Of a stretch of 63,486 bases of DNA, positions 32,231 to 63,345 are shown piece by piece. Position numbers and translations under genes: made by a program. Origin of the DNA: Paludibacteraceae bacterium. GTDB taxonomy: Bacteria > Bacteroidota > Bacteroidia > Bacteroidales > Paludibacteraceae. Under the pieces are notes generated by a model. The model saw nothing but the letters and a program-made list of their open reading frames with translations. It was not told where the DNA came from and did no database searches. The stretch lies in NCBI GenBank assembly GCA_017551025.1, contig JAFZNG010000022.1, positions 1 to 63,486 on the forward strand, written 5' to 3'. The first letter of the stretch is position 1. Every line of letters begins with the position of its first letter.

Positions 32231-32311
32231 GGCGACTTTGTCGCGTTAAAACGTTAAAATGGTCTGCGACGTTAAACGGTTAAAATGGTTTCGTTGCACG
32301 AAACGTTAACC
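32231..32311 (-). repeat. Mini-hairpin array, family A (inverted orientation)
   Basis: Linkers GTTAAAACGTTAAAATGG and GTTAAACGGTTAAAATGG alternate with three hairpins: GCGACTTTGTCGC (32232-32244), GTCTGCGAC (32262-32270) and GTTTCGTTGCACGAAAC (32288-32304). On the minus strand two of the loops read GCA. Confidence 0.8.
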
Positions 32312-32322
32312 ATGCGGCGAGA

Positions 32323-32400
32323 AATCTAACGTGCAGAGCACCATCTTAACAATCTAACGTGCAGAGCACCATCTTAACAATCTAACGTGCCGGAGGCACT
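32323..32400 (+). repeat. Mini-hairpin array, family A (direct orientation)
   Basis: The 28-bp period holds the linker CCATCTTAACAATCTAACGT and three hairpins: GTGCAGAGCAC (32331 and 32359) and GTGCCGGAGGCAC (32387). The last stem is one pair longer, and both arms changed together. It ends 7 bp before the DUF58 start codon. Confidence 0.9.
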
Positions 32401-32407
32401 GATTATT

Positions 32408-33292
32408 ATGACAAGCGAAGAATTACTAAAACGAGTTCGGAAGATAGAGATCAAGACCAGGGGACTGAGTCGGAATATCTTCGCAGGCGAATACCATAGC
32501 CAGTTCAAAGGTCGTGGTATGGCCTTTGCGGAGGTTCGCGAATACGAGCCCGGCGATGATGTGCGCACGATCGACTGGAACGTGACGGCACGACTCAACA
32601 AGCCGTACGTCAAGGTCTTTGAGGAAGAGCGCGAGCTGACCGTCATGCTGCTCATCGACGTAAGCGGTAGCCGCAACTTCGGTACGCTCACCCAGACCAA
32701 GCGCGACATGATGGCCGAGGTGGCCGCTACCCTCGCCTTCTCTACCATAGAGAACAACGACAAAGTCGGCGTACTCTTCTTCTCGGACCAAGTGGAAAAG
32801 TATATCCCGCCCAAGAAGGGTAAGCGCCACGTGCTGCATATCATCCATGAGTTGCTCAGCTTCGAACCCGAGCATACCGGTACGGATATCAACCAGGCGC
32901 TCCACTACTTCCGCAACGCCCAGAAACGCCGCACGACGGCCTTCCTGATTAGCGACCTGCAGGACGACAGGTTTGCCCAAGTACCGGAACGTATCGGTAA
33001 TCTGCCGCTCACGCTCACCGCACGTAAGCACGACATGAACGTCATCCAGATATACGACCTGCACGACGCCGAACTACCGAACCTGGGCCTGATGAAGGTC
33101 AAGGATGCCGAGACCGGCGAACGCCTATGGATCGATACCGCCAGCGAGCGGGTACGCCAACAGTATGCGCACGACTGGCAGGAACGCCAGGCACTGCTCG
33201 ACACCTTATTTACACGTACGGGCGTACGAAACGTCAGCATACGGACGGATGAGGACTACGTGAAAAAGCTCAAAGAGCTGTTTCACAGCTAG
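32408..33292 (+). CDS. DUF58 domain protein of the Bat cluster
   Basis: The 294-residue protein (ATG 32408, MTSEELLKRVRKIEI) has the DUF58 signature, including GRGMAFAEVREYEPGDDVR followed by IDWNVTAR. It also has a VWA-like segment VMLLIDVSGSRNF with a DxSGS metal-site pattern. DUF58 proteins regularly accompany MoxR ATPases. A GTG at 32387 would extend the frame into the hairpin array and is unlikely. The final codons (KELFHS) lie in another mini-hairpin (33276-33290). Confidence 0.9.
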   Translation: MTSEELLKRVRKIEIKTRGLSRNIFAGEYHSQFKGRGMAFAEVREYEPGDDVRTIDWNVTARLNKPYVKVFEEERELTVMLLIDVSGSRNFGTLTQTKRDMMAEVAATLAFSTIENNDKVGVLFFSDQVEKYIPPKKGKRHVLHIIHELLSFEPEHTGTDINQALHYFRNAQKRRTTAFLISDLQDDRFAQVPERIGNLPLTLTARKHDMNVIQIYDLHDAELPNLGLMKVKDAETGERLWIDTASERVRQQYAHDWQERQALLDTLFTRTGVRNVSIRTDEDYVKKLKELFHS

Positions 33293-33350
33293 ACCGCTAA
33301 CGCTGAAAGAATAAAGACCGCAGGTAAACCTGCTGAAAGAATAAAGACAA
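33276..33350 (+). repeat. Mini-hairpin array, family B
   Basis: The linker TGAAAGAATAAAGACC alternates with inverted repeats: AGCTGT-TTC-ACAGCT (33276-33290), a weak GC-TAAC-GC (33296-33303), and GCAGG-TAAA-CCTGC (33320-33333). It ends 2 bp before the next start codon and includes the DUF58 stop. Confidence 0.75.
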
Positions 33351-33352
33351 AA

Positions 33353-34270
33353 ATGCTTAATCTATTTTTAGCCATAGTAGTGAGTGCGTCGATCGATTCG
33401 ACGATGATCATGCTGGGCGATCAGACGGACATGCACCTGCAAGTAGTGTGCGACCCGACAGAACAAGTCCAACTGCCCACGATAGGCGAAGAACTTATCG
33501 AGGGTATCGAGGTGGTCAAAGCCGGTAAGGTGGACACCACCACAACCGCCGATGGTCAACGCCAACTCACCCAGACCCTGACGCTCACCAGTTTCAAGGA
33601 CTCGCTATATGCTATCCCGCCGATAGCGGTCGTAAGCGGCAAGGACACCTTCCGCTCAGAGGCGCTGAGTCTGAACGTCGTGCAACCCTTCGAGATGGAC
33701 ACCACAATGGCCATCACGGATATCAAGCAACGCGAGGACGCACCTATCTGGTGGTGGGGCATCATCCGATGGATACTGCTCGGCCTGCTGATCGCGACGC
33801 TCATAGGCGGTATTGCTTACCTCGTATATAAATACTACCGCGCAAAGCAACACCCTGAACAAGCACCGCAAATCCCGTTGCGTCCGGCCGAAGAGGTGGC
33901 ACTGGAGAAACTGCAGAAGATCGAACAGGAGAAGATCTGGAAAGAAGGCGAAGTAAAAGCCTACCATACGGAACTGACCGGCGTCGTGCGTGAGTATATC
34001 GGTCGCCGCTTCGGCGTGATGTCCACCGAGAAGACCAGCGACGAGACGCTGCGCGAGCTAAAACCGAAACTGATGGCGAAAGGCGAAGGGCTGGAGGCTA
34101 ATGTCGATACAAAACTGCTGTATGAGCAACTCAAGAAGATGCTGCAACTGGCCGACCTGGTGAAGTTCGCCAAGTGGACCACCACGCCCGAAGAGAACGA
34201 AGAAGCCTTGGCTACGGCTTTCGAATTCGTCCAGAAGACGACGCCGAAAGTCGAAGAAATTAAAAATTAA
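33353..34270 (+). CDS. Single-pass membrane protein of the Bat cluster (DUF4381-like)
   Basis: The 305-residue product has an N-terminal, probably signal-like, segment and a beta-rich domain to about residue 135. One strong membrane helix (WIIRWILLGLLIATLIGG region, about 143-168) and a charged cytoplasmic tail follow, with EYIGRRFGV in the tail. Position and shape match the unnamed protein found between DUF58 and BatA in Bacteroidetes, similar to DUF4381. Its role is presumably assembly of the Bat complex. The last codons (EIKN) are encoded by an AAAAATT heptamer array. Confidence 0.65.
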   Translation: MLNLFLAIVVSASIDSTMIMLGDQTDMHLQVVCDPTEQVQLPTIGEELIEGIEVVKAGKVDTTTTADGQRQLTQTLTLTSFKDSLYAIPPIAVVSGKDTFRSEALSLNVVQPFEMDTTMAITDIKQREDAPIWWWGIIRWILLGLLIATLIGGIAYLVYKYYRAKQHPEQAPQIPLRPAEEVALEKLQKIEQEKIWKEGEVKAYHTELTGVVREYIGRRFGVMSTEKTSDETLRELKPKLMAKGEGLEANVDTKLLYEQLKKMLQLADLVKFAKWTTTPEENEEALATAFEFVQKTTPKVEEIKN

Positions 34271-34289
34271 AAATGAAAAATTAAAAATG
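34255..34289 (+). repeat. AAAAATT/AAAAATG heptamer array providing stop and start codons
   Basis: Five 7-bp units (AGAAATT, AAAAATT, AAAAATG, AAAAATT, AAAAATG). The array encodes the end of the upstream protein and its stop. The ATG of the final unit is the batA start codon. Confidence 0.9.
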
Positions 34290-35273
34290 ACATTTGCTAA
34301 TCCTGCATATTTATTTCTGTTGCTGCTTTTGGTGCCGATCGTAGGCTGGTACCTGTACGAGTTGCACAAGGCGGACGCCAGCGTGCAGTTATCGGACACG
34401 GGCAGTATCAAGCGTCAGCAGAAGTCGCTACGGATCTACCTGCTACACGTGCCCTTTGTCCTGCGCACAGCCGTCGTCATACTGCTGACGCTCGCCCTGG
34501 CACGTCCGCAACTCACCAACCGCTACAACAACGAAGATATCGAGGGTATCGATATCATGATGGCCGTAGATATCTCGGGTACGATGCTCGCCGAAGACCT
34601 CAAGCCCAACCGACTGGAGGCCGCCAAGAAGGTGGCGGGCGAGTTTATCCAGAACCGTCCGAACGACCAAATCGGACTCGTCGTCTTTGCGGGTGAGAGT
34701 TTTACGCAATGCCCGTTGACCACCGACCATACTGCCCTCATGAACCTCTTCACGGGCGTACAGTACGGCATGATAGAAGACGGAACGGCCATCGGCCTTG
34801 GACTGGCCAACGCCGTGAACCGTATCAAGGAGTCGCCCACCAAGTCGAAGGTGATTATCCTATTGACAGACGGAAGTAACAACCGCGGTGACATCGCCCC
34901 CAAGACAGCCGCCGATATAGCCAAGTCGCTCGGCATCCGCGTCTATACCATCGGCGTAGGTTCCCACGAACAAGTACGCATACCGATCCAGACCCCCACG
35001 GGCATACAGTACGTAACGATGGATCCGGAGTTTGACGAGACAACACTCAAAGAGATCGCCCAAACCACCGGCGGCACCTATTTCCGCGCCACAGACAACG
35101 CCAGCCTGGAGGAGGTATATCAGCAGATTGACAAGATGGAGAAAACCAAACTCCACGTAAAGCAGTACGCCAAGCATACCGACCACTTCATGCCCTACCT
35201 GATTGCCGCACTGCTCTGCCTGCTACTGGAAGTATTCTTACGTAACTTAGTCCTAAAAACCATAAGTAACTAA
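34287..35273 (+). CDS. batA: BatA, VWA-domain inner-membrane protein
   Basis: The 328-residue protein has two N-terminal membrane helices (about 7-25 and 50-72), a VWA domain (about 88-285) and a C-terminal helix (about 303-325). The metal-ion site reads DISGT (from Asp95), with Thr in place of the usual last Ser. BatA/BatB form membrane complexes linked to oxygen or envelope-stress tolerance in Bacteroides. The stop is directly adjacent to batB (1-bp gap). Confidence 0.95.
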   Translation: MTFANPAYLFLLLLLVPIVGWYLYELHKADASVQLSDTGSIKRQQKSLRIYLLHVPFVLRTAVVILLTLALARPQLTNRYNNEDIEGIDIMMAVDISGTMLAEDLKPNRLEAAKKVAGEFIQNRPNDQIGLVVFAGESFTQCPLTTDHTALMNLFTGVQYGMIEDGTAIGLGLANAVNRIKESPTKSKVIILLTDGSNNRGDIAPKTAADIAKSLGIRVYTIGVGSHEQVRIPIQTPTGIQYVTMDPEFDETTLKEIAQTTGGTYFRATDNASLEEVYQQIDKMEKTKLHVKQYAKHTDHFMPYLIAALLCLLLEVFLRNLVLKTISN

Positions 35274-35274
35274 T

Positions 35275-36315
35275 ATGTTTAGATTTGCAAATATAGAACT
35301 ATTGTGGTTGTTGCTCACGGTGCCGGTACTGGTGATGGGTTATACCCTACTGGTCGTGCACAAACGCAAGCAACTCGCCCGGCTGGGTGACCCGGACCTG
35401 GTAGCCCGATTGATGCCCAACGCTTCGAAGGTGCGTCCTCACCTGAAGTTCGCCCTCCAGATGATGGCCCTCACGATGCTCATTCTTGCCGCTGCCCGTC
35501 CGCAGTACGGCGTACGCGAGGAGACCGTGACGCGCGAAGGCGTAGAGGCGGTCATCACCCTGGATATCTCCAACTCGATGCTCGCCGAGGATGTCAGCGG
35601 ACAGACCAGCCGTCTGGATGCCTCCAAGCAGATGTTAGCCCAACTGATGGACAAGATGGTGGACGATAAAGTGGGACTGGTCGTGTATGCCGGTGACGCC
35701 TTTGTCCAATTGCCTATCACGTGCGACTACGTATCGGCGAAGATGTTTCTCAGTAACATCAAGCCCGACTTGATCCAGACCCAAGGAACCGCCATCGGCA
35801 AGGCCCTACAGACCTCTATCTACGCCTTTGGCGACAAGGAGTCGGCGGCAGGCAGAGCGATTATCCTGCTCACCGACGGAGAGAACTTTGAGGACGATGC
35901 CGTCCAGATGGCCGAGAAAGCCGACAAGGCAGGTATCAAAGTGATCGTAGTAGGTATCGGTAGTACGGACGGCAGTCCGATACCCGTACCCGGCACAACG
36001 GATTATATGAAAGACCGCGAGGGCCAAACCGTCATAAGCCGGCTCAACGAAGATATGTGTCGCGAGATTGCCCAGGCCGGCAACGGCATATACGTGCATT
36101 ACGACAGCAGCAACCTCGCCCTGAAAGCCATTCGCAAAGAGCTGGACAAGCTGGGCAAGGAACAACTGGAGGCCCACGTCTTCCGGGAGTATAACGAGCA
36201 GTATCCGTCGTTTGTGGTCATTGCCCTGCTACTACTCGTGATCGACTTCTTCGTCTTCAACCGCAAGAACAAATCGCTGACACGACTGAATATCTTTAAG
36301 GAGAAACGCGCATGA
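35275..36315 (+). CDS. batB: BatB, VWA-domain inner-membrane protein
   Basis: The 346-residue paralogue of BatA has N-terminal helices (about 8-28 and 58-75), a VWA domain with DISNS (from Asp97), and a C-terminal helix (FVVIALLLLVIDFFVF). It overlaps batC by 4 bp. Partner of BatA in the Bat complex. Confidence 0.95.
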   Translation: MFRFANIELLWLLLTVPVLVMGYTLLVVHKRKQLARLGDPDLVARLMPNASKVRPHLKFALQMMALTMLILAAARPQYGVREETVTREGVEAVITLDISNSMLAEDVSGQTSRLDASKQMLAQLMDKMVDDKVGLVVYAGDAFVQLPITCDYVSAKMFLSNIKPDLIQTQGTAIGKALQTSIYAFGDKESAAGRAIILLTDGENFEDDAVQMAEKADKAGIKVIVVGIGSTDGSPIPVPGTTDYMKDREGQTVISRLNEDMCREIAQAGNGIYVHYDSSNLALKAIRKELDKLGKEQLEAHVFREYNEQYPSFVVIALLLLVIDFFVFNRKNKSLTRLNIFKEKRA

Positions 36316-36914
36316 AAAAGATTGTATTAGCCATACTGAGTGTACTTATCTTAAGTCCGCTCGCCGCCCAAGAGGAATATGCGGATATCCGTCGCGGCAA
36401 CCGTGCCTACGACCGGGAAGATTACCAGGAGGCGGAGGTCAACTACCGCCGTGCGCTGCAGAAGAATCCCAACTCGTTTGCCGCCACCTATAACCTGGGC
36501 AATGCCCTACTCCGTCAGGAGAAATTCGACGAAGCCGCCAAGCAGTATATCCGTGCAACCACGCAAGTCAAAGCCTCGGAAGATGCGCAGCGACTGGCGA
36601 ATGCGTATCATAACTTAGGAAACAGCTTCTTCGCCATGCAAGACTACGACAAAGCCATCGAAGCCTACAAGCAGAGCCTGAGGCTCAACCCTAAAGACAA
36701 CGATACGCGCTACAATCTGGTCAAGGCGATGCAGATGAAAAAACAGCAACAACAGCAACCGCAACCTCAGCCGCAACCGCAACAGCAACAGAACCAGATG
36801 GATCAGCAGACAGCCGAACAATTGTTGCAGGCCCTGGAGCAGGACGAACAAGAGGCGCAAGAGAAAGCGCAACGCCAACAACAAAAGAAGAAAGAATTAG
36901 AAAAAAACTGGTAA
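36312..36914 (+). CDS. batC: BatC, TPR periplasmic protein
   Basis: The 200-residue product has a signal peptide (residues 1-20, ending LAAQ) and three to four TPR units (about 24-140). A Gln/Pro-rich low-complexity stretch follows (about 143-170), then a charged coiled tail. It likely scaffolds the periplasmic side of the BatA/B complex. One bp separates it from the next gene. Confidence 0.88.
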   Translation: MKKIVLAILSVLILSPLAAQEEYADIRRGNRAYDREDYQEAEVNYRRALQKNPNSFAATYNLGNALLRQEKFDEAAKQYIRATTQVKASEDAQRLANAYHNLGNSFFAMQDYDKAIEAYKQSLRLNPKDNDTRYNLVKAMQMKKQQQQQPQPQPQPQQQQNQMDQQTAEQLLQALEQDEQEAQEKAQRQQQKKKELEKNW

Positions 36915-36915
36915 T

Positions 36916-37767
36916 ATGAAACGATTGAGTATTATTCTCGCCGCTGTATGTATCGCATCGGCGGCATGGGCAAAAACCGAAATTCAAGTGCTGACACCCG
37001 ACCGCGTGGTCTTCGGACAGCCCTTTGAAATCGGGTATCTGGTAACGGGTAACGGACAGGAGATCAGCCTGAAGACCAACGACGAATTCGATATCGTAGC
37101 CGGTCCGTATCGTCGGGCGGAGAACTACACCGAACGCGAGAAAGGACGCCTCGTCACCCGCACCCGTACGCTCTACACCTATACCGTCGTACCCCGTGTA
37201 TCGGGCACGGTAAAACTGCCGAAAGCCAAGGTCGTCCTCACCAAAGGAAGCGTGACCAGCAAGGCGGTCAAAATCGAAGTCATGGAACCCCGTACTTGTT
37301 GTGGCGGATTCGGTCCCTTTGATCTATTCTTCGACGGACCGAGAATGCCGATGCCTCCCGCACCGAGAGGTCCTCACCACTGTGGGCATCACGAGATGCA
37401 CATGGACACGATCCGTATGGAGGATATCGATACAACGGGTTGCGCCCTAACTATTTGTGCACCGGACAGTGCCCGGGCAGGCAAGGAGTTTGCCATCCGC
37501 TATTCCATCCCGGCAATGGCCGACAGCATTACGCTGGAAGAAAGTGCGGATTTTGAGGTCCTCAGCGGTCCGATGTATGGCACACAGCGTAACATCACCA
37601 TCACCAACGACCAACGCCAAGTGCGCTATGAGCAGTACTATACATATGTCTTGCGCGCCAAGAAGACCGGCCTGTTGACCCTGCCGAAAGCCGGCGTCAT
37701 GGTCGGCACCACACGCAAAGAATCCGACACGAAGACCATCACCATTCTACCCGCTGAGAACGAATGA
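36916..37767 (+). CDS. Short BatD-like protein with a Cys/His/Met-rich insert
   Basis: The 283-residue secreted protein (signal peptide to about residue 19) consists of two copies of the BatD-type beta domain, each using phrases like FEI.Y.. and SG.. LP.A. Between them, about residues 122-175, is a segment with CC, HHCGHH, MHMD and several MPMP motifs. That could bind a metal such as copper, zinc or iron. It overlaps batD by 4 bp. A two-domain BatD relative directly before BatD is seen in some Bacteroidales; the metal-binding idea is inference from composition. Confidence 0.7.
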   Translation: MKRLSIILAAVCIASAAWAKTEIQVLTPDRVVFGQPFEIGYLVTGNGQEISLKTNDEFDIVAGPYRRAENYTEREKGRLVTRTRTLYTYTVVPRVSGTVKLPKAKVVLTKGSVTSKAVKIEVMEPRTCCGGFGPFDLFFDGPRMPMPPAPRGPHHCGHHEMHMDTIRMEDIDTTGCALTICAPDSARAGKEFAIRYSIPAMADSITLEESADFEVLSGPMYGTQRNITITNDQRQVRYEQYYTYVLRAKKTGLLTLPKAGVMVGTTRKESDTKTITILPAENE

Positions 37768-40403: not shown

Positions 40404-40418
40404 TGGCACAGATTTTGA

Positions 40419-40457
40419 CAAATTAAAAATGAAAAATGAAAAATTAAAAATTAAAAT
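40419..40457 (+). repeat. AAAAATG/AAAAATT heptamer array before groES
   Basis: Four clean 7-bp units, AAAAATG twice then AAAAATT twice, sit just upstream of the groES start. No -7 promoter box is seen in this gap. Confidence 0.85.
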
Positions 40458-43090: not shown

Positions 43091-43111
43091 AAATCACAAC
43101 GTTTGAGACTA

Positions 43112-43143
43112 CAAAAGTACAGTTTTTTTTGCATACGTGCAAA
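43112..43143 (-). promoter_or_regulatory. DUF2520 gene promoter
   Basis: TTTG (43140-43143), 20 bases with an A8 run, then TACTTTTG (43112-43119) on the minus strand. The -33 element shares the palindrome TTTGCATACGTGCAAA with the queF promoter. Confidence 0.8.
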
Positions 43144-43161
43144 TTTTTTTGTACCTTTGCA
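43128..43161 (+). promoter_or_regulatory. queF operon promoter
   Basis: TTTG (43128-43131), 20 bases with a T7 run, then TACCTTTGCA (43152-43161). It overlaps the divergent promoter, so the two cannot be bound by polymerase at once. Confidence 0.85.
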
Positions 43162-43171
43162 CCCGATTTGC

Positions 43172-43723: not shown

Positions 43724-44348
43724 TCTGATTGTGCTGTCGGGTGGACTGGACTCCACCACCCTGCTCTATGAGTACCGGGAACGTATCGCCCTGGCGGTGT
43801 CGTTCCATTACGGTAGCAACCACAACGACCGCGAGTTGGCCTTTGCCCGTCTGCACTGCGAGCGCCTCGGCATACCGCACAAGGTCGTAGCGCTACCCTT
43901 CTTCAAGCAGTTGTTCCACTCCTCCCTCCTGGAAGGTGCGGACGCTATTCCCGAAGGGAATTACGATGATGACAACATGCGCTCCACCGTGGTGCCCTTC
44001 CGCAACGGCATTATGCTCTCTATTGCGGCAGGCATGGCCGAGAACGAGAAACTGCAGTATATCATGCTGGCCAACCATGCCGGTGACCATACCATCTATC
44101 CCGATTGCCGACCCGAGTTTGTAGAGGCAATGGATAAAGCCGTATGTGCCGGCACATGGAACGGCGTACGGCTACTGACGCCCTATACAAACATCTCTAA
44201 GACAGAGATCGTGCGTCACGGACTCCGTCTCGGCATCAACTACGACGAGACCTGGAGTTGCTACCGCGGGGGCGACAAGCCCTGCGGCGTATGCGGTACG
44301 TGCCGCGAACGTGAAGAAGCCCTCCGCGAAGCCGGCTATAATGCTTAA
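43713..44348 (+). CDS. queC: 7-cyano-7-deazaguanine synthase QueC
   Basis: The 211-residue ATP-dependent enzyme converts CDG to preQ0. The PP-loop SGGLDS (9-14) and the C-terminal zinc site ([15 protein letters not shown], about 188-202) are intact. Its start overlaps the queF end and its stop codon runs into a TTTTTAA heptamer array. Confidence 0.97.
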
Positions 44349-44378
44349 TTTTTAATTTGTAATTTTTAATTTTTAATT
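44346..44378 (+). repeat. TTTTTAA heptamer array between queC and queD
   Basis: About four 7-bp units (TAATTTT/TTTTTAA, one TTTGTAA variant) begin at the queC stop and end 6 bp before the queD ATG. Confidence 0.85.
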
Positions 44379-44717: not shown

Positions 44718-44788
44718 CAGTTTAACGTTTTTTCAAAAGAAAAAACCATTTTAACTATTTAACGTTTTTCGTAGAAAAACAATTTAAC
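44718..44788 (+). repeat. Mini-hairpin array, family A, ending at the queE start codon
   Basis: The linker CCATTTTAACTATTTAACGT separates two hairpins: GTTTTTTCAAAAGAAAAAAC (44727-44746) and GTTTTTCGTAGAAAAAC (44764-44780). The last linker ends exactly at the ATG. It covers the whole queD-queE gap. Confidence 0.9.
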
Positions 44789-45475
44789 ATGTATAAAATA
44801 AACGAAGTTTTTTATACATTGCAGGGCGAGGGGGCACACGCCGGCATACCGGCTGTGTTTGTGCGGCTGAGCGGATGCAACCTACGCTGCCCGTGGTGCG
44901 ACACCGAGTTCAAGGAATACCGCGAGATGAGTGCCGCAGCTATCGTAGCGGAGGTGCAGGACCTGTACGACATACCGAACGAGCGCCGCAAGATGGTGGT
45001 GCTCACGGGTGGCGAACCTAGTCTGCAAGTCGATACAGCCCTGATCAACGCCCTGCACGAAGCCGGCTTCTATATCTGTATCGAGACCAACGGTACCCGT
45101 CCCCTACCCGAAGGCATCGACTGGATCACCTGCTCCCCGAAAATGGTCTATCAGTCCGAAGGACGGTCTATCAGTGAAACGGTCTATCAGCGAAGCGGTC
45201 TATCAGCGAAGCGGTCTTCGCTCGCTTTAAAGCGAGTGAATGAAGTGAAAGTAGTTTATACCGGAGAATACGATCCGGAGATTTGGCGCAGCCAACTCGA
45301 AGCCGAACACTGGATGCTGCAACCGCTTCGCTATACCGGAGAGTGGCTACTCCAGAATTGCGACGCCTTTGAGGACGACCGCAACGACAATCTGGACGAT
45401 ACCGTACGGTATATACTATCCCACCCCTTCTGGCGACTGAGCGTACAACTACATAAAATAGTCGGCCTCCGATAA
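44789..45475 (+). CDS. queE: 7-carboxy-7-deazaguanine synthase QueE with in-frame repeat insertion
   Basis: The 228-residue radical-SAM enzyme converts CPH4 to CDG. The cluster motif CNLRCPWC (Cys30, 34, 37) and GGEPSLQ are intact. Between CSPK (about 114-117) and the conserved NEVKVVY lies an extra segment of about 32 residues coded by a mini-hairpin array (45145-45240). Family members I know lack it, and it falls on a surface loop by alignment reasoning. The enzyme is probably still functional because the frame is kept. The stop codon lies in the loop of a terminator hairpin. Confidence 0.93.
   Translation: MYKINEVFYTLQGEGAHAGIPAVFVRLSGCNLRCPWCDTEFKEYREMSAAAIVAEVQDLYDIPNERRKMVVLTGGEPSLQVDTALINALHEAGFYICIETNGTRPLPEGIDWITCSPKMVYQSEGRSISETVYQRSGLSAKRSSLALKRVNEVKVVYTGEYDPEIWRSQLEAEHWMLQPLRYTGEWLLQNCDAFEDDRNDNLDDTVRYILSHPFWRLSVQLHKIVGLR
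45145..45240 (+). repeat. Mini-hairpin array, family C, inside queE
   Basis: Four copies of linker GGTCTATCA are followed by GTCCGAAGGAC, GTGAAAC, GCGAAGC and GCGAAGC. Each is a stem of 2-4 bp closing a GAA loop. A larger near-palindrome, centred on CTCGCTTTAAAGCGAG (45217-45240), follows. Confidence 0.9.
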
Positions 45476-45496
45476 ACGGAAGTCGACTATTTTTTT
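45456..45496 (+). terminator. Terminator of the queFCDE operon
   Basis: A long stem (AAATAGTCGGCCTCCG with CGGAAGTCGACTATTT, two mismatches) is followed by T7. The queE stop codon lies in its loop. Confidence 0.8.
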
Positions 45497-45498
45497 AT

Positions 45499-45568
45499 CC
45501 TTTAGCCTTTAGCCTATAGCCTTTCGCCTATAACCTTTAGCCCTTCGCCTATATCCCTTCGCCTAATA
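45499..45568. repeat. CCTTTAG heptamer array, ten units
   Basis: Ten 7-bp units (CCTTTAG, CCTATAG, CCTTTCG, CCTATAA, CCCTTCG, CCTATAT, CCTAATA variants) span exactly 70 bp. The array contains the stop codon of the convergent DJ-1-like gene. Confidence 0.92.
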
Positions 45569-47409: not shown

Positions 47410-47479
47410 TTCAGTCTTTTGTCTTTCGACTTTTATCTTTCGACTTTTGTCTTTTGTCTTTTGTCTTTCGACTTTTGTC
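47410..47479. repeat. TTTTGTC/TTTCGAC heptamer array between exbB and exbD
   Basis: Nine 7-bp units from 47417 (TTTTGTC, TTTCGAC, TTTTATC variants) fill the junction. A related fragment, TTTTGTCCTTCGACTT, follows the terminator near 56010. Confidence 0.9.
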
Positions 47480-47483
47480 TCTA

Positions 47484-48149
47484 TTATACCGGTTCGTTCA
47501 AGAGGTCCATAAACTCCAAGGTACGGCCCTCCAAACGACGTACCACGCGGTCGATACGCGACACGAGCAGGTTATAGGCAAACAGGGCGATGATACCTAC
47601 AATCAGACCACCGATCGTGGTCACCATGGCCTGGTACATACCCGTAGAGAGCATCTCCATATCGATCGATCCACCGGCTTTATTCGCCATTTCGAAGAAG
47701 GTCTGCACCATACCCAGCACCGTACCCAGGAAGCCCAACATAGGCGCACCGGCGGCGATAGTAGCCATCAGCACCAGACCTTTCTCCAGTTTGCTGATCT
47801 CCAGGTTGCCCACGTTCTCGATAGCTACCTGTACGTCCTGCATCGGACGACCGATACGGGTAATACCCTTCTCGATCATGCGTGCACTCGGCGTATCCGT
47901 CTGGGTGCAGAGTTTCTGCGCCGACTCGATCTTGCCCTCATGGATGTAATCGCGAATGCGGTTCATGAAGGTCTTGTCTTCCTGCATGGCAGCCTTGAGC
48001 ACTACCAGGCGCTCGATGAAGATATATACTGCGCCCAACAGCAGCAGGGCCAGGATAATCATGATCCATCCACCCAGTTGTGCCATTTCCCACAGGCTAA
48101 TTGTCTTGGTTGTTACGGCCTCCGTAGCCGCTTGAATTTGCAATAACAT
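47484..48149 (-). CDS. exbB: ExbB/TolQ/MotA-family proton channel
   Basis: The 221-residue protein has three helices (about 22-45, 125-150, 170-195). The conserved cytoplasmic and pore segments (APMLGFLGTVLGMVQTF, VTTIGGLIVGIIALFAYN) are those of MotA/TolQ/ExbB proteins. It forms the proton channel that drives the TonB-like partner. Confidence 0.93.
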   Translation of the reverse strand: MLLQIQAATEAVTTKTISLWEMAQLGGWIMIILALLLLGAVYIFIERLVVLKAAMQEDKTFMNRIRDYIHEGKIESAQKLCTQTDTPSARMIEKGITRIGRPMQDVQVAIENVGNLEISKLEKGLVLMATIAAGAPMLGFLGTVLGMVQTFFEMANKAGGSIDMEMLSTGMYQAMVTTIGGLIVGIIALFAYNLLVSRIDRVVRRLEGRTLEFMDLLNEPV

Positions 48150-48888: not shown

Positions 48889-48908
48889 AACTTGAAATAG
48901 TTTTCGGC

Positions 48909-48941
48909 TGCAAAATTACAAAAAAAAATTGATATACGCAA
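48909..48941 (-). promoter_or_regulatory. pdxJ operon promoter
   Basis: TTG (48939-48941), 20 bases with a T9 run, then TAATTTTGCA (48909-48918) on the minus strand. It is nearly identical to the permease promoter at 21544. Confidence 0.85.
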
Positions 48942-48996
48942 GCGCGCATAGACAAAATATTGTAAAAAAGTGTCCAAAGGCCATAAATACGGCTCA

Positions 48997-49025
48997 TTTT
49001 TAATTTTTAATTTTTAATTCTTAAT
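48997..49025. repeat. TTTTTAA heptamer array replacing the -33 region of the acyltransferase promoter
   Basis: Four 7-bp units run directly into the -7 box TACCTTTGCA at 49035-49044. Confidence 0.8.
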
Positions 49026-49034
49026 TAAAAGTCG

Positions 49035-49064: not shown

Positions 49065-50036
49065 ATGGCTAAGATACAAGATCAAGACCGTCTGTACGCA
49101 TTTTTGCGCCCCTATGTCGATTGGATGTTCCGACGTTCCTATCGGCATTTTCGCTATATCGGTCGGGAAAATATCCCCACCGACGGAGCGGTCATCTTTG
49201 CGCCCAACCATACCAATGCGCTCTGTGACGCCATGGCCATACTGGGTATCGATCGCCGCCAAAAAGTCTTTGTCGCCCGTGCGGACATCTTCCGCCGTCC
49301 GCGTCAGGCCAAGCTGCTCACCTGGCTTAAGATCATGCCTATTCGGCGTATGCGCGACGGCATGGACGAGGTGCGCCACAACGACGAGACCATCCTTCGT
49401 GCCGTTGACACCTTGCACGACGGCATACCCTTCTGTATCCTGCCCGAGGGTACCCACCGACCGATGCACTCCCTGCTGCCGCTGAGCAAAGGCATCTTCC
49501 GTATCGCCTTGCTGGCCAATGATACCTTTGGCAAACAAAAACCCGTCTATATCGTGCCCGTCGGCCTGGAGTACGGCGATTATTTCCACCTCTGGGACGA
49601 CCTGACCGTCACTATCGGCAAACCCATCCATGTGACGCAATTTGCCCACAACCATGCCGAATTAGACCGTCCGCAACTCATCCTCGCCCTTCGCGAGGAA
49701 TTAACCCTGCGCATGCGTGAACTAATTATTTGGGTACCCGACGATGAGCACTATGAACAAAACCTTGCCCGTCTGCTGCCCAAGCCCCAAAAAGCCAACA
49801 TACCGTTCTTGATTCTTACCGCACCACTCGTGCCGGTATGCGCCTTGCTGACAGTGCCGCTCTGGGGTATGTTGCTATGGATTCGCCGTAATGTCAAGGA
49901 CCCGGCTTTCCATAACTCCGTGCAGTACGTATGGCAACTGGTATTCCTAAGCCTTACCCTGCTGCTACCTATGCCGTTTTGGCTGTTTTTACAGGAATAT
50001 GCTTACCAGATGAGGAAATTAAAAATTAAAAATTAA
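49065..50036 (+). CDS. 1-acyl-sn-glycerol-3-phosphate acyltransferase (PlsC-like)
   Basis: The 323-residue protein has the acyltransferase motif NHTNALCD (HX5D, a spacing I associate with Bacteroidetes members) and LPEGTHR further on. Two C-terminal membrane helices follow (about 247-275 and 290-312). It likely acylates lysophosphatidate or a related lipid at the inner membrane. The last residues (RKLKIKN) are read from an AAAAATT heptamer array. Confidence 0.87.
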   Translation: MAKIQDQDRLYAFLRPYVDWMFRRSYRHFRYIGRENIPTDGAVIFAPNHTNALCDAMAILGIDRRQKVFVARADIFRRPRQAKLLTWLKIMPIRRMRDGMDEVRHNDETILRAVDTLHDGIPFCILPEGTHRPMHSLLPLSKGIFRIALLANDTFGKQKPVYIVPVGLEYGDYFHLWDDLTVTIGKPIHVTQFAHNHAELDRPQLILALREELTLRMRELIIWVPDDEHYEQNLARLLPKPQKANIPFLILTAPLVPVCALLTVPLWGMLLWIRRNVKDPAFHNSVQYVWQLVFLSLTLLLPMPFWLFLQEYAYQMRKLKIKN

Positions 50037-50041
50037 AAATT
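50014..50041 (+). repeat. AAAAATT heptamer array at the acyltransferase end
   Basis: Three exact AAAAATT units (50021-50041) after a degenerate one encode the C-terminus and stop of the acyltransferase. ACGAATGATACATG follows, as before groEL. Confidence 0.88.
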
Positions 50042-50052
50042 ACGAATGATAC

Positions 50053-56681: not shown

Positions 56682-56699
56682 AACTATTCGTTTTTTATG

Positions 56700-58498: not shown

Positions 58499-58532
58499 GG
58501 AATAGAAAGTGCCACTCTCCAAGAAACTACAC

Positions 58533-58562: not shown

Positions 58563-58567
58563 ATTGA

Positions 58568-58607
58568 GCATAAAAAATCCCTCGCAAACATCTATTGCAA
58601 GGGATTT
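58568..58607 (-). terminator. Terminator of the 382-residue unknown gene
   Basis: A 12-of-13 bp stem (AAATCCCTCGCAA 58575-58587, TTGCAAGGGATTT 58595-58607) has a T6 run on the minus strand. Confidence 0.75.
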
Positions 58608-58624
58608 CACATATCACTTTCGAT

Positions 58625-59773
58625 TTAATGAAAATGCTTATCGAATGTTTTCGCAGTATAGTTCGGTTGGTTCTCATCCGGCAAGCCTAATCTCTCTAAT
58701 TCTGCACGGACAATAGCATGATTGAGTGTCCTATAGTAAATACGATTATCATCTGCCATTTTGCTTAAATGGTTGAAAATTTCAGGAATCGGATAGTTCT
58801 TCACCAAGTTCTTGACTTCTAGATGAACCTTTCTTTTCTCATCCTCATCAATTACAGAAGGATGGATAAAGTGAAAAAGTTCTTCTGTCTGTTGTAAGGA
58901 TGTGTCATCTAAAGTTTTTCCTGTGTCTTGTGCAGAATCTGCTTTCCATATTTTTATATAGCGGTCAAGTTCATCGAATAGAGCCTTGCGTAGATTCTCT
59001 ACCTGATAATCTTCCATGCGATCTATACCAAATAATTTTAACTTAATAATATCAGGCCAATCTTCACGAAAACGTTCCACTATCTCAGCTGCTCTTGCTC
59101 CGCCGCGAGCTTGAACAATCAATTCAAGTTTGTAACGCAAATGATTGGGGTAAAAGTCTTGAAAACTATTTTGCAATAAACGATCCCACAATATCATATC
59201 CGGTGGTAGACTTTCGTCCCAAATACTATAATCTACATCGGTGCTTACGGGTAGAATATCAGCAAACCATAGTAATCCTTTTAGCGTTAATGGTCTGAGG
59301 GCATCATATCTGCCCTCTGAATTGTAATCATCAGGTTGATAAGCCTCTATTGCCACTTTGCCATCAACCAAGCAAATATGTTTAATTTCCTCAGTTGGTA
59401 TCCATACTAATGGATTTGAGATTAGATGGTTGATTTTATCAACAATTCTATATTCATAGCAATTAGTTACGCGTTTCCAATCTACTTGTTTTCTTACGGC
59501 ATATAACTCTTCGGCTACAAGATGGTTACATAGTTTGTCATCGCAATACCGAAAGTCATGATTGGTGTAATACAGCCCCGTGCTTTCATCTTTATGCAGT
59601 TCTACGTCGTATATTATGTGAAAGCCCCATTCCTTGCTACGTTTTTCGTAACAAGCCCGCAATTCATCAAGGCTGAGGATATTACTCTTATAGGCCTCTA
59701 CTCCACCATTTTCAAGCTTTTGGTAGAATTTATACATCTTTTCGTTTAGATACTCTTCATCTATGAAATTCAT
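58625..59773 (-). CDS. Unknown 382-residue protein in an AT-rich island
   Basis: Not recognised. The sequence is mostly helical and charged, with no membrane segment. The last 90 residues (FHFIHPSVIDEDEKRKVHLEVK, then EICxxL-like and TAKTFDKHFH) resemble a C-terminal module I associate with Bacteroidales mobile-element proteins, but I cannot name it. Base composition is markedly more AT-rich than the core genes. It follows the endonuclease gene by 23 bp, so the two may form one cargo operon. Confidence 0.6.
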   Translation of the reverse strand: MNFIDEEYLNEKMYKFYQKLENGGVEAYKSNILSLDELRACYEKRSKEWGFHIIYDVELHKDESTGLYYTNHDFRYCDDKLCNHLVAEELYAVRKQVDWKRVTNCYEYRIVDKINHLISNPLVWIPTEEIKHICLVDGKVAIEAYQPDDYNSEGRYDALRPLTLKGLLWFADILPVSTDVDYSIWDESLPPDMILWDRLLQNSFQDFYPNHLRYKLELIVQARGGARAAEIVERFREDWPDIIKLKLFGIDRMEDYQVENLRKALFDELDRYIKIWKADSAQDTGKTLDDTSLQQTEELFHFIHPSVIDEDEKRKVHLEVKNLVKNYPIPEIFNHLSKMADDNRIYYRTLNHAIVRAELERLGLPDENQPNYTAKTFDKHFH

Positions 59774-59796
59774 ATTATTTTGTTAAATTTTGATGT

Positions 59797-61179
59797 TTAT
59801 TTGTTAGTTTCCCAAATGTATCCGTGATATTCGATGCCTTTATCTATATATCGTCCCAAATGACGATTGCCAATGCCCAAATGTTTGGCAGCTTCCATTG
59901 TTGATGTAAATGTCGCGACCACCTGACCATCACGAATTAACCTTATGGGACGAAGATTTGATTTTGTCCAACCATTCAAAGCATAGAGGTCAATTGAATT
60001 GTGCCAACAATAATTCAAGACCTCTGGATGATTGGCCTTGAGCGTCTCATATGAGCCAGCCTCCTGACAAAGTGCTTTGATTTGCTCGATAGTAAAATGA
60101 TAATGAGGATGGAGTTGCCTCTTTAATGGTAATAGCAAATCCTCCCATCCCCTGCGCTTTATCATTTGATACGCGCCATTATAAGCATCTTTAAACTCTT
60201 TGAGTGTTTTGTATTGACCAATTAGTTCTATTAGAGCCTCTCGTGTCCATTTTACATTTGACGCTCTACATAATTCCGACAATTCTTTATGCCAACCATG
60301 ACGTTTCGCAGCAGCCAAAGCTCCGGGAAACTTATCATGTACCTGCCGGATGCTTTCGCATTGTGAATACGCTTTTCTACATTCCTCATAATTGTCGTAG
60401 ATTTGCCTCATCCTATTGGGAAAGTGCTTATCTAACAAATGGTCGAGTTGGTGCTGTCGTATATATTCGCGATAACTTGAATATGATTTAGCCCAATCAT
60501 CCAATTTATCAAAGCCATGCATAGATTTTTCTATCTTAGCGATATCGTAATCCAGAATCTCTTGACCACCAAGAGAACCGGTCTTGAATCGGTTAAGAAT
60601 AGTCCATCCGGCATCTTTATACTTTTGCAACCAAACTCCTTCTTGGATAGATGCTTCCTCTTGATCCATATAATCTGTTAGAATCTTAGGCTTAGGAATA
60701 TCTAACTGATGTAAATGTGCAAAATCAAATACGGCTCCTTCTTTATGGTGGCGTTTGTTTCTTATCTCCATCTTAAACGTGAGACCAATATACGCAGCAT
60801 GGAAGTCGGTAAATTCATAAGCATATATGATTCTTTGCTTGTTCCCTTTTGTCCCCATGTGGGCACAACACTCCTCGTACCAACCATGTCTTTTTGCACA
60901 ATCCACCATTCCTGGATATTTGTTGATAAATTCCACACGAGAATTACATGTGCGAGCAGTAGCAATACATATTTCTTTGTTGTATTTTGTATTCTTATCT
61001 GCGCGGCACATTATGCACCCGTGGCCTCTAAGGTGGCTACTGGGGACTTGCCAAAAAACGCCATGCTTTGGACAGATGATGCACACCTTGGTCTTAGCAT
61101 TTACATACTCCACCTTGGAATAATCATACTTATCCCCATGAACTTGTTTAGCCCTATGTATGAACTCCTCGGTGGTCAT
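59797..61179 (-). CDS. GIY-YIG-like homing-type endonuclease with NUMOD repeats
   Basis: The 460-residue protein begins with a zinc-binding segment (about 5-60; CPKHG and CIMC supply four Cys). A GIY-YIG-like core (about 118-200, with AYEF and AYIGLT) comes next. Three or four helical repeats built on YPG...AKRHGW follow (about 75, 285, 340). A NUMOD1-like end is seen (about 418-455, STMEAAKHLGIGNRHLGRYI). This looks like a free-standing homing or mobile-element endonuclease. Composition is AT-rich. Confidence 0.75.
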   Translation of the reverse strand: MTTEEFIHRAKQVHGDKYDYSKVEYVNAKTKVCIICPKHGVFWQVPSSHLRGHGCIMCRADKNTKYNKEICIATARTCNSRVEFINKYPGMVDCAKRHGWYEECCAHMGTKGNKQRIIYAYEFTDFHAAYIGLTFKMEIRNKRHHKEGAVFDFAHLHQLDIPKPKILTDYMDQEEASIQEGVWLQKYKDAGWTILNRFKTGSLGGQEILDYDIAKIEKSMHGFDKLDDWAKSYSSYREYIRQHQLDHLLDKHFPNRMRQIYDNYEECRKAYSQCESIRQVHDKFPGALAAAKRHGWHKELSELCRASNVKWTREALIELIGQYKTLKEFKDAYNGAYQMIKRRGWEDLLLPLKRQLHPHYHFTIEQIKALCQEAGSYETLKANHPEVLNYCWHNSIDLYALNGWTKSNLRPIRLIRDGQVVATFTSTMEAAKHLGIGNRHLGRYIDKGIEYHGYIWETNK

Positions 61180-61197
61180 AATTTCTATTGTTTTTAA

Positions 61198-61226
61198 TCA
61201 GCCATGTATGGCTGATACGCTCTTAG
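61198..61226 (+). repeat. REP element 2
   Basis: TCAGCCATGTATGGCTGA (61198-61215, 8-bp arms around GT) is followed by TACGCTCTTAG. It lies 18 bp upstream of the endonuclease start and downstream of the RAYT stop. Confidence 0.85.
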
Positions 61227-61230
61227 TGAT

Positions 61231-61252
61231 TTGTATGGCTGACACGCTCTAT
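61231..61252 (+). repeat. REP element 2b (right half only)
   Basis: TTGTATGGCTGACACGCTCT repeats the 3' half of REP element 2 about 25-26 bp downstream. It includes the RAYT stop codon. Confidence 0.7.
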
Positions 61253-62331
61253 TGGTTACACATCCGGCGGATGAGGGCGTTGAGGGCGAGGAAGCGGTAG
61301 CGCTTGCTATTAGGCGTGCAGCGCGGGTCTTTGCGATAGACCTCATCCGCTATCTCCTTATCCTCAAAAAGGCTAGGACCCGGCTCTATCAGTAGCAGTT
61401 GTCCTGCCGCACAGGCCTCAAAATAGACGCCCTGCGGTTTGTAGTACTTCGCGTGCGGACTATCCGCATCAGGGAATCCCTCATTCAGTAGCACCAACAT
61501 CGGATACCCCGCCTCTCTAATCGCCCTGCAAATTTGTTTCTCTCCTTCCGAAATCCCCGCACTTACCCATACCACGCCGCGCTCTGCCAACCGCAGACAC
61601 TCCGCTTTACGTTTGTCTATTTGAGCTTGCGTAAGCGTACGCGAACATTGGAGCATCTCCCGCATCGGGTCGTCCTTGAGGAACTGGTTGCCTAGCGTCG
61701 TACATTCAAACCCCGCCACCTGCACCTTCTGCCGTAACTTAAACAGTTCCGGGTTCGCCCGCTTGAGCGCCGCCCTCCTGGGATTGTCATGAACGTACCA
61801 GATAGCGTTCTCTAATTGCCCATCGCGAAAACATACGCTGTCGTCATAGTTATCATCAAAGAGGGGCGCTATTCCTATCTTTTTATAATAATCCTCGCGT
61901 TGCCTGCGCGACATATGCGATAGTGACGCCCGTTGTTCATCTGAGAGCGAGGCTCTGTCCCGCATATATGGCCGATTCATTCTTCTCCATTCCTGCGTAC
62001 AAGCGATCTTGAATCCGCGCATGATCTCGCCGAGAGTCACATCCATCTCTGACTCCACGCGTATGATGCCATGAAAATGATCCGGCATTACCTGATGAGC
62101 CAGTACACTTATTTGACGACCGTATTGGTTATGAAAGTCCGGTAACTCCAGCCATTGTTGCTCCATATAGCGACCAAAATCGGTCATCTCTACATATGGA
62201 GCTGGGTTAGTACGTAACTCTCCTAACAACCGCTGGTGGTCATTCACAACGATTGTAATTAGATACGTACCTGTCCAGCGGTAGTTATTCCAGCTGGCAT
62301 GTGGTCTATGTGACGAGCGGTTTGATCCCAT
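61249..62331 (-). CDS. RAYT (REP-associated tyrosine transposase) with C-terminal DprA/LOG-like extension
   Basis: From ATG 62331 the protein has 360 residues. Residues about 20-195 form the Y1/HUH nuclease of RAYTs: VMPDHFHGII carries the His-x-His metal site (85-87), and the catalytic Tyr is Tyr179 in YVHDNPRRAALKR. Residues about 225-330 (VVWVSAGISEGEKQICRAI, LVLLNEGFP, YFEACAAGQLLLIEPGP) look like a truncated DprA/LOG Rossmann domain, an unexpected fusion. Flanking REP palindromes in opposite orientations are the expected substrates. I preferred the start 3' of the promoter at 62362-62393. Confidence 0.88.
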   Translation of the reverse strand: MGSNRSSHRPHASWNNYRWTGTYLITIVVNDHQRLLGELRTNPAPYVEMTDFGRYMEQQWLELPDFHNQYGRQISVLAHQVMPDHFHGIIRVESEMDVTLGEIMRGFKIACTQEWRRMNRPYMRDRASLSDEQRASLSHMSRRQREDYYKKIGIAPLFDDNYDDSVCFRDGQLENAIWYVHDNPRRAALKRANPELFKLRQKVQVAGFECTTLGNQFLKDDPMREMLQCSRTLTQAQIDKRKAECLRLAERGVVWVSAGISEGEKQICRAIREAGYPMLVLLNEGFPDADSPHAKYYKPQGVYFEACAAGQLLLIEPGPSLFEDKEIADEVYRKDPRCTPNSKRYRFLALNALIRRMCNQ

Positions 62332-62361
62332 ATCTTTTCCTGCCCTGCGCCAATTTTGGCG

Positions 62362-62393
62362 CAAAGTTACAAAAATTTTTTGACATGTGCAAA
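62362..62393 (-). promoter_or_regulatory. RAYT gene promoter
   Basis: TTTG (62390-62393), 20 bases, then TAACTTTG (62362-62369) on the minus strand. GCGCCAAAATTGGCGC just downstream can form a hairpin in the leader. Confidence 0.82.
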
Positions 62394-62416
62394 TCTCCGC
62401 TATATATTTCTCTCTA

Positions 62417-62445
62417 AAAGAGCGCACGAGCCATACATGGCTCAT
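62417..62445 (-). repeat. REP element 3 (inverted relative to 1 and 2)
   Basis: On the minus strand, TGAGCCATGTATGGCTCG is followed by TGCGCTCTTTT. The second and penultimate stem positions read G and C here, C and G in element 2, and T and A in element 1. Confidence 0.85.
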
Positions 62446-62821
62446 AATATACCCCGAAGGTTAAAAGTTAAAAGTTAAAAGTCTGCGATTTTTAACTTCC
62501 ACTTTTAACCGATGATGCCTATAGTCCCGAGAAGTTAAGAGTCTCACTCCATAATGATATATCGCGCGCACACGAATTGCATTTGCAAATTCGATAACTT
62601 TTAACTTTTAACTTTTAACCTATTTAACTAATAATATAATAAGAGTTGGAGGTTATAGGTAGTTCTTTCGGGACCATGTTACATGTCGGGGGACAAATGG
62701 CACAACCTAGGGGACAACATATTGCGTATGTCATAAAAAAGCAGTACCTTTGCATCAGATTTGAAAAAGAAAGGTAAATGACAGGTAATTGATACGATAT
62801 TGATACGTTCACACTTTTAAA
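62446..62821. other. Gene-free stretch with opposed heptamer arrays and spaced direct repeats
   Basis: No gene is seen. It holds a large inverted repeat made of ACTTTTA-type heptamers (GGTTAAAAGT... at 62459-62483 facing ...ACTTTTAACC at 62489-62510) and a further ACTTTTA array (62597-62620). GGGAC occurs three times at 62670, 62690 and 62711, about 20-21 bp apart. The promoter at 62722-62754 follows. Confidence 0.7.
62722..62754 (+). promoter_or_regulatory. Promoter of the terminal small-protein module
   Basis: TTG (62722-62724), 20 bases, then TACCTTTGCA (62745-62754). The GGGAC repeats lie just upstream of its -33 box. Confidence 0.83.
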
Positions 62822-63001
62822 ATGAATATGGCAAAAATCCGCATCCCTCCCGGCTATACCTGGCGCCAAATAGCCGACCAACTCGCCTCTATTGGCATCA
62901 CGCTCGACGCACACCAACTGGCAGACGGTTCCTTTCGAGCGTACGTTCGGAAACGCAACCTAAACCTATTTATTAATAACCTAAACCTAACCCAATTATG
63001 A
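62822..63001 (+). CDS. Small hypothetical protein, 59 residues
   Basis: ATG at 62822 opens a 59-codon frame (MNMAKIRIPPGYTWRQIAD, then IGITLDAHQLADGSFRAY). Its stop overlaps the next start (ATGA at 62998), which strongly suggests translational coupling and a real gene. It is the first gene after the promoter at 62722. Product not recognised; the second ATG (62828) is an alternative start. Confidence 0.6.
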   Translation: MNMAKIRIPPGYTWRQIADQLASIGITLDAHQLADGSFRAYVRKRNLNLFINNLNLTQL

Positions 63002-63195
63002 CCAAAGAACAGATCTACAAAATCGTAGCTACTGCCCTGACGGCTATCGTGACCTGCTTGGCGATCGCACTCGGCCTGCAGAGTTGCAACGTGACCAGGA
63101 CCGTGACCACCCAGTCGCAGTACTACCAACGAGGCGACACCTCCGTCGTCATCCAAACCCGCACCATCGAATCGTACGATGGCGTCAAGAAGTAA
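62998..63195 (+). CDS. Small membrane/lipoprotein-like protein, smalltalk-type
   Basis: The 65-residue protein has one hydrophobic segment ending in a Cys (ALGLQSCNVTR, Cys at about 30), consistent with a lipoprotein or short membrane protein. A polar tail QYYQRGDTSVVIQTRTIES follows. It is reminiscent of the tiny smalltalk-like proteins found in the Bacteroidales DUF3987/HU/amidase module, but longer. The family link is from memory and uncertain. Confidence 0.55.
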   Translation: MTKEQIYKIVATALTAIVTCLAIALGLQSCNVTRTVTTQSQYYQRGDTSVVIQTRTIESYDGVKK

Positions 63196-63345
63196 ACGTT
63201 AGACCGTTAGAATGGCGCTTCGCGCGTTATAACGTTCGTAAGGCCTTCGGCGTTAACGTGGCGCAGCCACCATTTTAACCTCTTAACGTTCACATAATGA
63301 ACCTTTTTAACAATTTAACGTTTAACCCCTTAAACCTTAACTATT
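63196..63345. repeat. Mini-hairpin array, family A (both orientations)
   Basis: The whole gap between two module genes is array. The inverted-orientation part has GCGC-TTC-GCGC (63215-63225) and GCC-TTC-GGC (63243-63251). The direct part has GTGGC-GCA-GCCAC (63258-63270) and GTTCA-CATAA-TGAAC (63288-63302), joined by CCATTTTAACCTCTTAACGT and similar linkers. Confidence 0.85.

Follow-up and report, generated by a model that had tools for sequence, protein, structure and literature searches.

Arrays of miniature hairpins with constant linkers and freely varying, paired stems in one Bacteroidales genus

Here we describe arrays of miniature hairpins in a 63,486-nucleotide stretch of DNA (the window), which is one contig (C17) of a 1.94-Mb Bacteroidales genome in 36 contigs, labelled G000. 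In these arrays a constant linker alternates with a short inverted repeat, and we found that the repeat system is real, widespread and different between close relatives, with pairing of the stems kept while their sequence is free. The explanation that fits best, at a probability of about one half, is that the units are small palindromic DNA repeats of a single Bacteroidales genus, similar to repetitive extragenic palindromic (REP) elements and Rickettsia palindromic elements (RPE) and recognized by the shape of the single strand. The best matches of a DUF58 protein from the window among named genomes were metagenome-assembled genomes of Paludibacteraceae and other Bacteroidales, many of them from rumen, with a top identity of 89%. 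A search of the open-access literature (subscription papers lay outside it) returned no description of these arrays.

The original prediction, made from the letters of the window, had placed linker-hairpin arrays at six stretches and had named three unrelated linkers. Hairpins are present at these stretches, and the linkers recur well beyond them. Linker 1 (CCATYTTAACNATYTAACGT) has 48 matches in the G000 genome at up to three mismatches, compared to none for the reversed control; in the window alone there are 8 such matches against 0.06 expected, a number reached by none of 100 shuffles. The genus comprises 178 genomes in the searchable set, 151 of which are covered by the unit counts for linkers 1 and 2, and the full linker-1 unit occurs in 61 of these 151 (reversed control: one match in one genome). 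In 24 genomes from outside the family, linker 1 was matched only in G046 (four matches versus three for the control). The sequences TGAAAGAATAAAGACC and GGTCTATCA, which had been counted as separate linkers, turned out to be one family in opposite orientation, linker 2 (CTGANAGACC), so that the window has two linkers rather than three. Window counts for linker 2 are not clearly above chance (two matches, equalled by 4 of 100 shuffles), and GGTCTATCAG, whose reverse complement is CTGATAGACC, gave 10 window matches at one mismatch, equalled by 1 of 100 shuffles. We count linker 2 as real because its genome-wide counts exceed the controls: the G000 genome has 44 copies of the unit AGACCG-N3..24-CTGANAGA (control, one), and the unit is present in 144 of 151 genus genomes, with a maximum of 250 per genome and controls of 0 to 4 per strand. 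Among 98 other genomes of the order, this unit gave 0 to 8 matches per genome and the controls 0 to 10.

A third linker, CTATAGGAC, is unrelated to the other two and occurs elsewhere in the genus. Its design, TATAGGAC-hairpin-TATAGG, was first suggested by junctions in named relatives, and searches restricted to the 178 genus genomes found the unit in 39 of them, with up to 34 copies (in G014) and controls of no more than 3 per strand; at least six units are present in 12 genomes, and many of the remaining genomes are at control level. In G000 the linker-3 unit was absent, with three matches for the control. As linker 3 repeats the same design, and as G014, the genome richest in it, carries 11 units of linker 2 and none of linker 1, the architecture persists while the linker sequence shifts between lineages. 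Three unrelated linkers with one shared design are thus found in the genus, although not in the window, and the linker family (TTTAAC-, CTGANAGACC- or CTATAGGAC-type) is lineage-specific, which bears out the prediction that architecture is conserved rather than sequence. A further candidate linker of AATGA type was discarded after one hairpin was found in 10 matches. Phage carriage of linker 1 was also discarded: eight matches in viral contigs have inserts with stems of two to five pairs and look like chance. The linker-2 pattern had no match in viral contigs, the array inside queE none in plasmids, and the first array of the window (32231..32400) none in phages.

The covariation of the two stem arms, also part of the original prediction, is far above shuffled sequence for linker 1. 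A test for perfect hairpins (stem of at least 4 bp, loop of 3 to 8) was applied to 47 linkers from the window and 20 own-genome loci; such a hairpin adjoins the downstream end of the linker in 29 of 47 cases and the upstream end in 35 of 47, while shuffled flanks gave means of 3.4 and 3.4 and maxima of 8 and 10. At least five of these 64 adjoining hairpins are the linker's own TTAA letters pairing rather than inserted stems. Among the matches listed, 145 typed linker-1 units from 32 genomes contain 105 distinct inserts, and 103 of the 105 extend the constant GT/AC by two or more pairs (shuffle mean 10.9, maximum 20). Only 4 of the 673 stem pairs in this set are not Watson-Crick (one T.G, two A.C and one A.A), with mismatches adjoining the loop scored as loop; in a second, overlapping extraction from fetched loci, 269 of 271 variable pairs are Watson-Crick and the other two are A.C, with G.T absent. 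Where two inserts differ at a single stem position, both arms had changed in 117 pairs and one arm in 34, the pairs not being independent. Closed hairpins are also in excess for linker 2, which is looser (57 of its 81 typed inserts, against a mean of 35.6 and a maximum of 43 in shuffles), and for linker 3 (62 of 77 distinct inserts; shuffle mean 11, maximum 17). Stem sequence is therefore free as long as pairing is kept, and for linker 1 the pairing is nearly always perfect.

The loops, in turn, carry a strand signal. Read in linker orientation, 54 of 67 linker-1 triloops are of the R-N-A type (purine, any base, A) and one is of the reverse-complement type; GNA alone accounts for 35 of 69, so that the predicted preference for GNA-type triloops holds as a trend. 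Linker-2 triloops are T-N-Y in 26 of 33 cases, which is R-N-A on the opposite strand, and the common linker-2 hairpin GCTNCGC reads GCGNAGC on that strand. DNA minihairpins with GCGAAGC and GNA loops are described as extraordinarily stable, melting near 78 C (PMC4686876). Together, the R-N-A bias and the stability of GNA loops point to a folded DNA strand that is set by the element itself.

The arrays of the window, with the hairpins that they contain and the genes beside or around them, are as follows.

32231..32400, no strand given: linker-1 array between moxR and the DUF58 gene (linker scan, hairpin test, Pfam flanks); hairpins at 32232-32244, 32262-32270, 32288-32304, 32331-32341, 32359-32369 and 32387-32399; two minus-strand linkers on the left, two plus-strand linkers on the right.
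33291..33349, plus strand: linker-2 array (AGACC-hairpin-TGAAAGA) between the DUF58 gene and the next gene (sequence, linker-2 scan); hairpins GC-TAAC-GC at 33296-33303 and GCAGG-TAAA-CCTGC at 33320-33333.
44718..44788, plus strand: linker-1 array between queD and queE (sequence, hairpin test, ortholog comparison); hairpins GTTTTTTC-AAAA-GAAAAAAC at 44727-44746 and GTTTTTC-GTA-GAAAAAC at 44764-44780.
45145..45217, minus strand: linker-2 array, in frame within queE (sequence, ortholog alignment, predicted structure); hairpins at 45154-45164, 45174-45180, 45190-45196 and 45206-45212.
63196..63345, no strand given: linker-1 array (linker scan, hairpin test, paralogue comparison); hairpins GCGC-TTC-GCGC at 63215-63225, GCC-TTC-GGC at 63243-63251, GTGGC-GCA-GCCAC at 63258-63270 and GTTCA-CATAA-TGAAC at 63288-63302; the last listed, GTTTAA-CCCC-TTAAAC at 63320-63335, is linker letters pairing, with no inserted stem.
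31235..32230, plus strand: gene for a MoxR-type AAA ATPase, left of the first array (Pfam).
32408..33292, plus strand: DUF58/VWA gene between two arrays (Pfam).
44789..45475, plus strand: queE, for the radical SAM enzyme 7-carboxy-7-deazaguanine synthase, host of an array (Pfam).

In all six linker-1 gaps of G000 with mixed orientation, three of which are paralogues, the minus units lie on the left and the plus units on the right.

Copies and relatives differ by whole units. The array at 63 kb has three paralogous copies in G000, which are largely alike except in one slot: this slot holds GTTCA-CATAA-TGAAC in the window and GTTTTTAT-TCA-ATAAAAAC on contig C36, and is missing on contig C18, where two linkers meet directly. 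Orthologous junctions were compared in three relatives from the genus, G109, G117 and G137; in aligned blocks, G109 and G137 have a mean identity of 95% over the best-matching 9.9 kb only, with other stretches lower. Such a comparison, which the original prediction had proposed, revealed different repeats at several junctions, together with some that are alike in G109 and G137. Between queD and queE, slot 1 contains GTTTTTTC-AAAA in G000, GTTTTTC-GCA in G117 and a different stem, GTTTTGAT-GCA, in G109, with the slot-2 stem unchanged; G137 has a heptamer array of GACTTTT type instead. Downstream of the DUF58 gene, linker-2 units are present in G000 and a different kind of short repeat in G137, and G109 and G117 (loci L249-L250 and L252) share the stem GTTTTTAT..ATAAAAAC around a loop that reads TTG in G109 and CAA in G117, the reverse complement, an apparent inversion of the loop.

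Several other repeats were seen along the way. Three near-identical loci of G000 (L143, L146 and L151) share a linker-1 array of two hairpins, placed ahead of the start of the same downstream gene, which suggests a multicopy gene or element carrying its array along. Four mostly intergenic stretches of the window (30982-31106, 43107-43170, 47413-47489 and 48902-48950) have numerous additional matches (76-97% identity) across G109, G117 and G137, which means that other families of dispersed repeats are present. Arrays with a period of 7 lie at 4621-4654, 5942-6008, 21884-21973, 34257-34288, 40416-40456, 44345-44378, 45494-45553, 47414-47480, 48996-49026 and 50016-50042 of the window; their units differ (AAATTAA, GGTGTAT, TTTAGCC, GTCTTTT and others), and some of these arrays are within long open reading frames (ORFs).

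Contrary to the original prediction, arrays are not confined to junctions before start codons. In-ORF positions and polarity were tallied per array in a non-random sample (the window and loci L001-L016 and L137-L280) with mechanically called ORFs, and a depth of 20 codons or more within an ORF is reached by 29 of 62 linker-2 arrays and by none of 63 linker-1 arrays (4 of the 63 are at ORF edges). Four of the six frames of linker 1 contain a stop codon, while linker 2 has one stop-free strand, a difference that may explain why linker 2 enters genes and linker 1 does not. In the window, 45145-45240 had been taken for a junction, but its array, 45145-45217, lies within the queE reading frame and encodes most of a 22-residue insert (about residues 119-142) relative to insert-free orthologues; in the predicted QueE structure, the predicted local distance difference test score (pLDDT) falls below 50 only at residues 125-138. 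At this loop G117 has a shortened version of the array and G137 has GTCGAAA heptamers, and G109 and G137, about 96% identical outside the loop, are unrelated inside it. A survey of 30 QueE loci found an insert in 11, with differing sequences of which several are plainly heptamers (for example AATCACA), and none in 19.

Other proteins are affected in a similar way. RibBA has an in-frame linker-2 array between its two domains, where PDB 4i14 has two residues versus 23 in the query; this linker was readable in 27 of 30 loci and contains several unrelated repeat types, with linker-2 arrays in 11. In-frame linker-2 arrays of relatives are also present in MurF, MurC, RadA, XseA, a POR-type oxidoreductase and an M28 peptidase, as well as in Mfd, there within a stretch outside alignment coverage. 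Of the 15 first-listed places in the array-rich genome G114, 10 lie in one open frame with a Pfam domain (the L263 unit among them is not a closed hairpin, and the L268 and L271 arrays are just outside the domain), one (L267) is a chance match, and four are at gene edges, intergenic or without assignment. Two ORFs combine domains. At L270 (742-1950), a single ORF contains PcrB/GGGP synthase and TadA-like deaminase domains with a linker-2 array at the joint, a possible case of fusion by repeat. At L265 (267-2213), EPSP synthase and glycosyltransferase family 2 domains share one ORF with an array inside the second, which may be a fusion or a frame artefact.

We propose that the units are copied to new sites by way of a folded single strand of DNA, and that a putative mobilizing enzyme would recognize the shape of this strand rather than the stem sequence. 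Template switching from one arm to the other may repair damaged stems and would account for both arms changing together, and selection would keep copies in junctions or, for the linker with a stop-free strand, in protein loops. Movement of units is inferred from sequence comparison, and several observations weigh against this proposal. A mobilizing enzyme was not found, Y1_Tnp being the only one searched for (in the 178 genus genomes), and transposition was not observed. Linker-3 triloops follow no clear strand rule (T-N-Y in 20 of 40, R-N-A in 11 of 40), and standard DNA and RNA folding parameters give near-equal mean energies on both strands and do not discriminate between them. Among linker-2 inserts, 24 of 81 have no closed hairpin, some of these being chance matches, and 8 of the 15 unclosed linker-3 inserts contain one mismatch each, which is T.G in three cases. 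G000 and G109 have the same queE array letter for letter despite a gene identity of about 80%, a finding that agrees with conversion or selection no less than with movement. Also alike in G109 and G137 are the queC-queD junction and a region near a gene that we take to be groES-like. Finally, linker-2 arrays are polar: in co-directional gaps, 16 run in the same direction as transcription, one runs opposite and two are mixed, and inside ORFs 24 run opposite and five in the same direction. Stop codons on one strand could by themselves select for such polarity.

If the proposal is correct, these would be repeats maintained by the shape of their DNA instead of its sequence, and selfish or mutational DNA would have entered reading frames (RibBA, MurC, MurF and QueE) and the joint between the PcrB and TadA domains, in a bacterial case outside the groups best known for intragenic palindromes. 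As close relatives have different repeats at the same places, the genus would also offer a natural experiment on the making of non-coding DNA and protein linkers. A stronger version, which we hold as a tentative possibility only, is that of a new element class defined by single-strand DNA shape, a genus-wide system that copies free-stem mini-hairpins between lineage-specific linkers; lineages would then rewrite the same junctions and loops with their own repeat alphabet, and some proteins would be joined or lengthened in the process. Novelty had been part of the original prediction, and the lack of GTAG or CGTC tags, together with the lack of Y1_Tnp matches in two array-rich genomes, speaks for it. 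That the class is wholly new is nevertheless unproven, because REP elements and RPE already set a precedent, in the accounts given by PMC3733652 and PMC10969869.

The arrays could instead be passive filler, produced by local slippage and template switching at tolerated sites through the same process as the heptamer arrays, with nothing moving. We consider this rather doubtful, but it has support, as a period of 7 accounts for 16 of the 35 tandem-repeat rows of the window, relatives hold heptamers at some of the same junctions and loops, and template switching is known to produce perfect palindromes. Slippage, however, does not explain the same linker of 18-20 bases at many unlinked places, and it leaves the R-N-A loops on one linker-defined strand of linker 1 (54 versus 1 of 67) without explanation. 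A role in RNA, which the original prediction had left to experiment, seems unlikely to us. Intercistronic hairpins that tune mRNA stability, coupling or translation start under compensatory evolution would fit the covarying stems, the many arrays between co-directional genes (several in the window end near start codons) and the polarity of intergenic linker-2 arrays, which may have such a role. Linker-1 arrays, however, have no such polarity in co-directional gaps (18 same, 20 opposite, 4 mixed), and their G.T pairs are near-absent (1 of 673, and 0 of 271 in the overlapping set); linker-2 copies lie within coding sequence, non-hairpin repeats can occupy orthologous junctions, and no Rfam family matched the window above its gathering score.

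Ordinary REP elements moved by a REP-associated tyrosine transposase (RAYT, a Y1 tyrosine transposase) are a still poorer fit, and we give this explanation a low probability. REP elements likewise form small inter- and intragenic hairpins whose alternative stem residues are complementary (PMC3733652), and the RAYT domain profile, Y1_Tnp, searched first in 37 genomes and then in the 178 of the genus, has a match in 68 of 178 genomes and one above the cut-off in 48, G000 among them. The G000 match is weak, however (38.6 bits), and there was no Y1_Tnp match in the array-rich genomes G114 (131 linker-2 units, 95% complete) and G002 (168 units, 90% complete). The linkers also lack a GTAG or CGTC tag, and orientation is mixed in only 5 of 63 linker-1 and 2 of 62 linker-2 arrays (singles counted), as opposed to REP dimers, which are mostly head to head. 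Least probable by far, and close to negligible, are integron attC sites or CRISPR-like arrays. Folded attC sites keep structure over sequence, as these units do, and have inverted core boxes flanking the hairpin, and linker 1 resembles the motif RYYYAAC. Judged by sequence and flanking genes, though, the linkers flanking each hairpin within a run are direct rather than inverted, the arrays join ordinary housekeeping pairs (queD-queE) and lie within genes, and the units are short, with no spacer logic.

Collectively, we conclude that the system works like a palindromic repeat of the REP/RPE type but is not a member of those families as defined, because REP tags are absent, RPE differ in length and peptide, and Y1_Tnp is without a match in G114 and G002. 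REP elements of the GTAG and CGTC superfamilies are described as palindromes of 20-40 bases with many inter- and intragenic copies and alternative complementary stem residues; the CGTC type, reported in some Bacteroidetes, has no known dedicated transposase in that account, REP dimers are mostly head to head and rarely head to tail, and GTAG families often have G.T pairs (PMC3733652). The palindromes described here are likewise small, dispersed, present in high copy between and within genes, and endowed with alternative complementary stems. Unlike REP, they lack an unpaired GTAG or CGTC tag (the flanks are TTAAC / CA(T)TTTAAC, NTCA / GGTCT and AGGAC / TATAGG), most linker-1 inserts differ from one another, constant linkers join neighboring units mostly in one orientation, G.T pairs are near-absent from linker 1, and three unrelated linkers coexist in one genus. 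RPE lie in frame within functional genes, are about 150 bases long and encode a conserved peptide, as described in PMC10969869. Linker-2 arrays are similarly palindromic inserts in frame in conserved protein genes, but their units are some 15-36 bases long, have free stems that differ between copies, and are built into arrays.

Closer to the host, intergenic heptamer repeats (such as TAACTGA) are reported as short direct repeats, often near start codons, in Bacteroidetes including Paludibacter (PMC4679880). The arrays share with them a Bacteroidetes host and a short, intergenic repeat, but have hairpins and covarying stems, which have no counterpart in the excerpted text of that description. 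Hairpin elements are also found in mitochondria, double-hairpin elements among them. Mitochondrial repetitive hairpin elements (RHE) are thought to be invasive and have unrelated sequences across lineages, with conserved stems and variable loops in sponges (PMC2800124). Unlike RHE, the arrays have a bacterial rather than an organellar host, and it is their stems that vary, with pairing kept; like the mitochondrial elements, they have unrelated sequences in different lineages.

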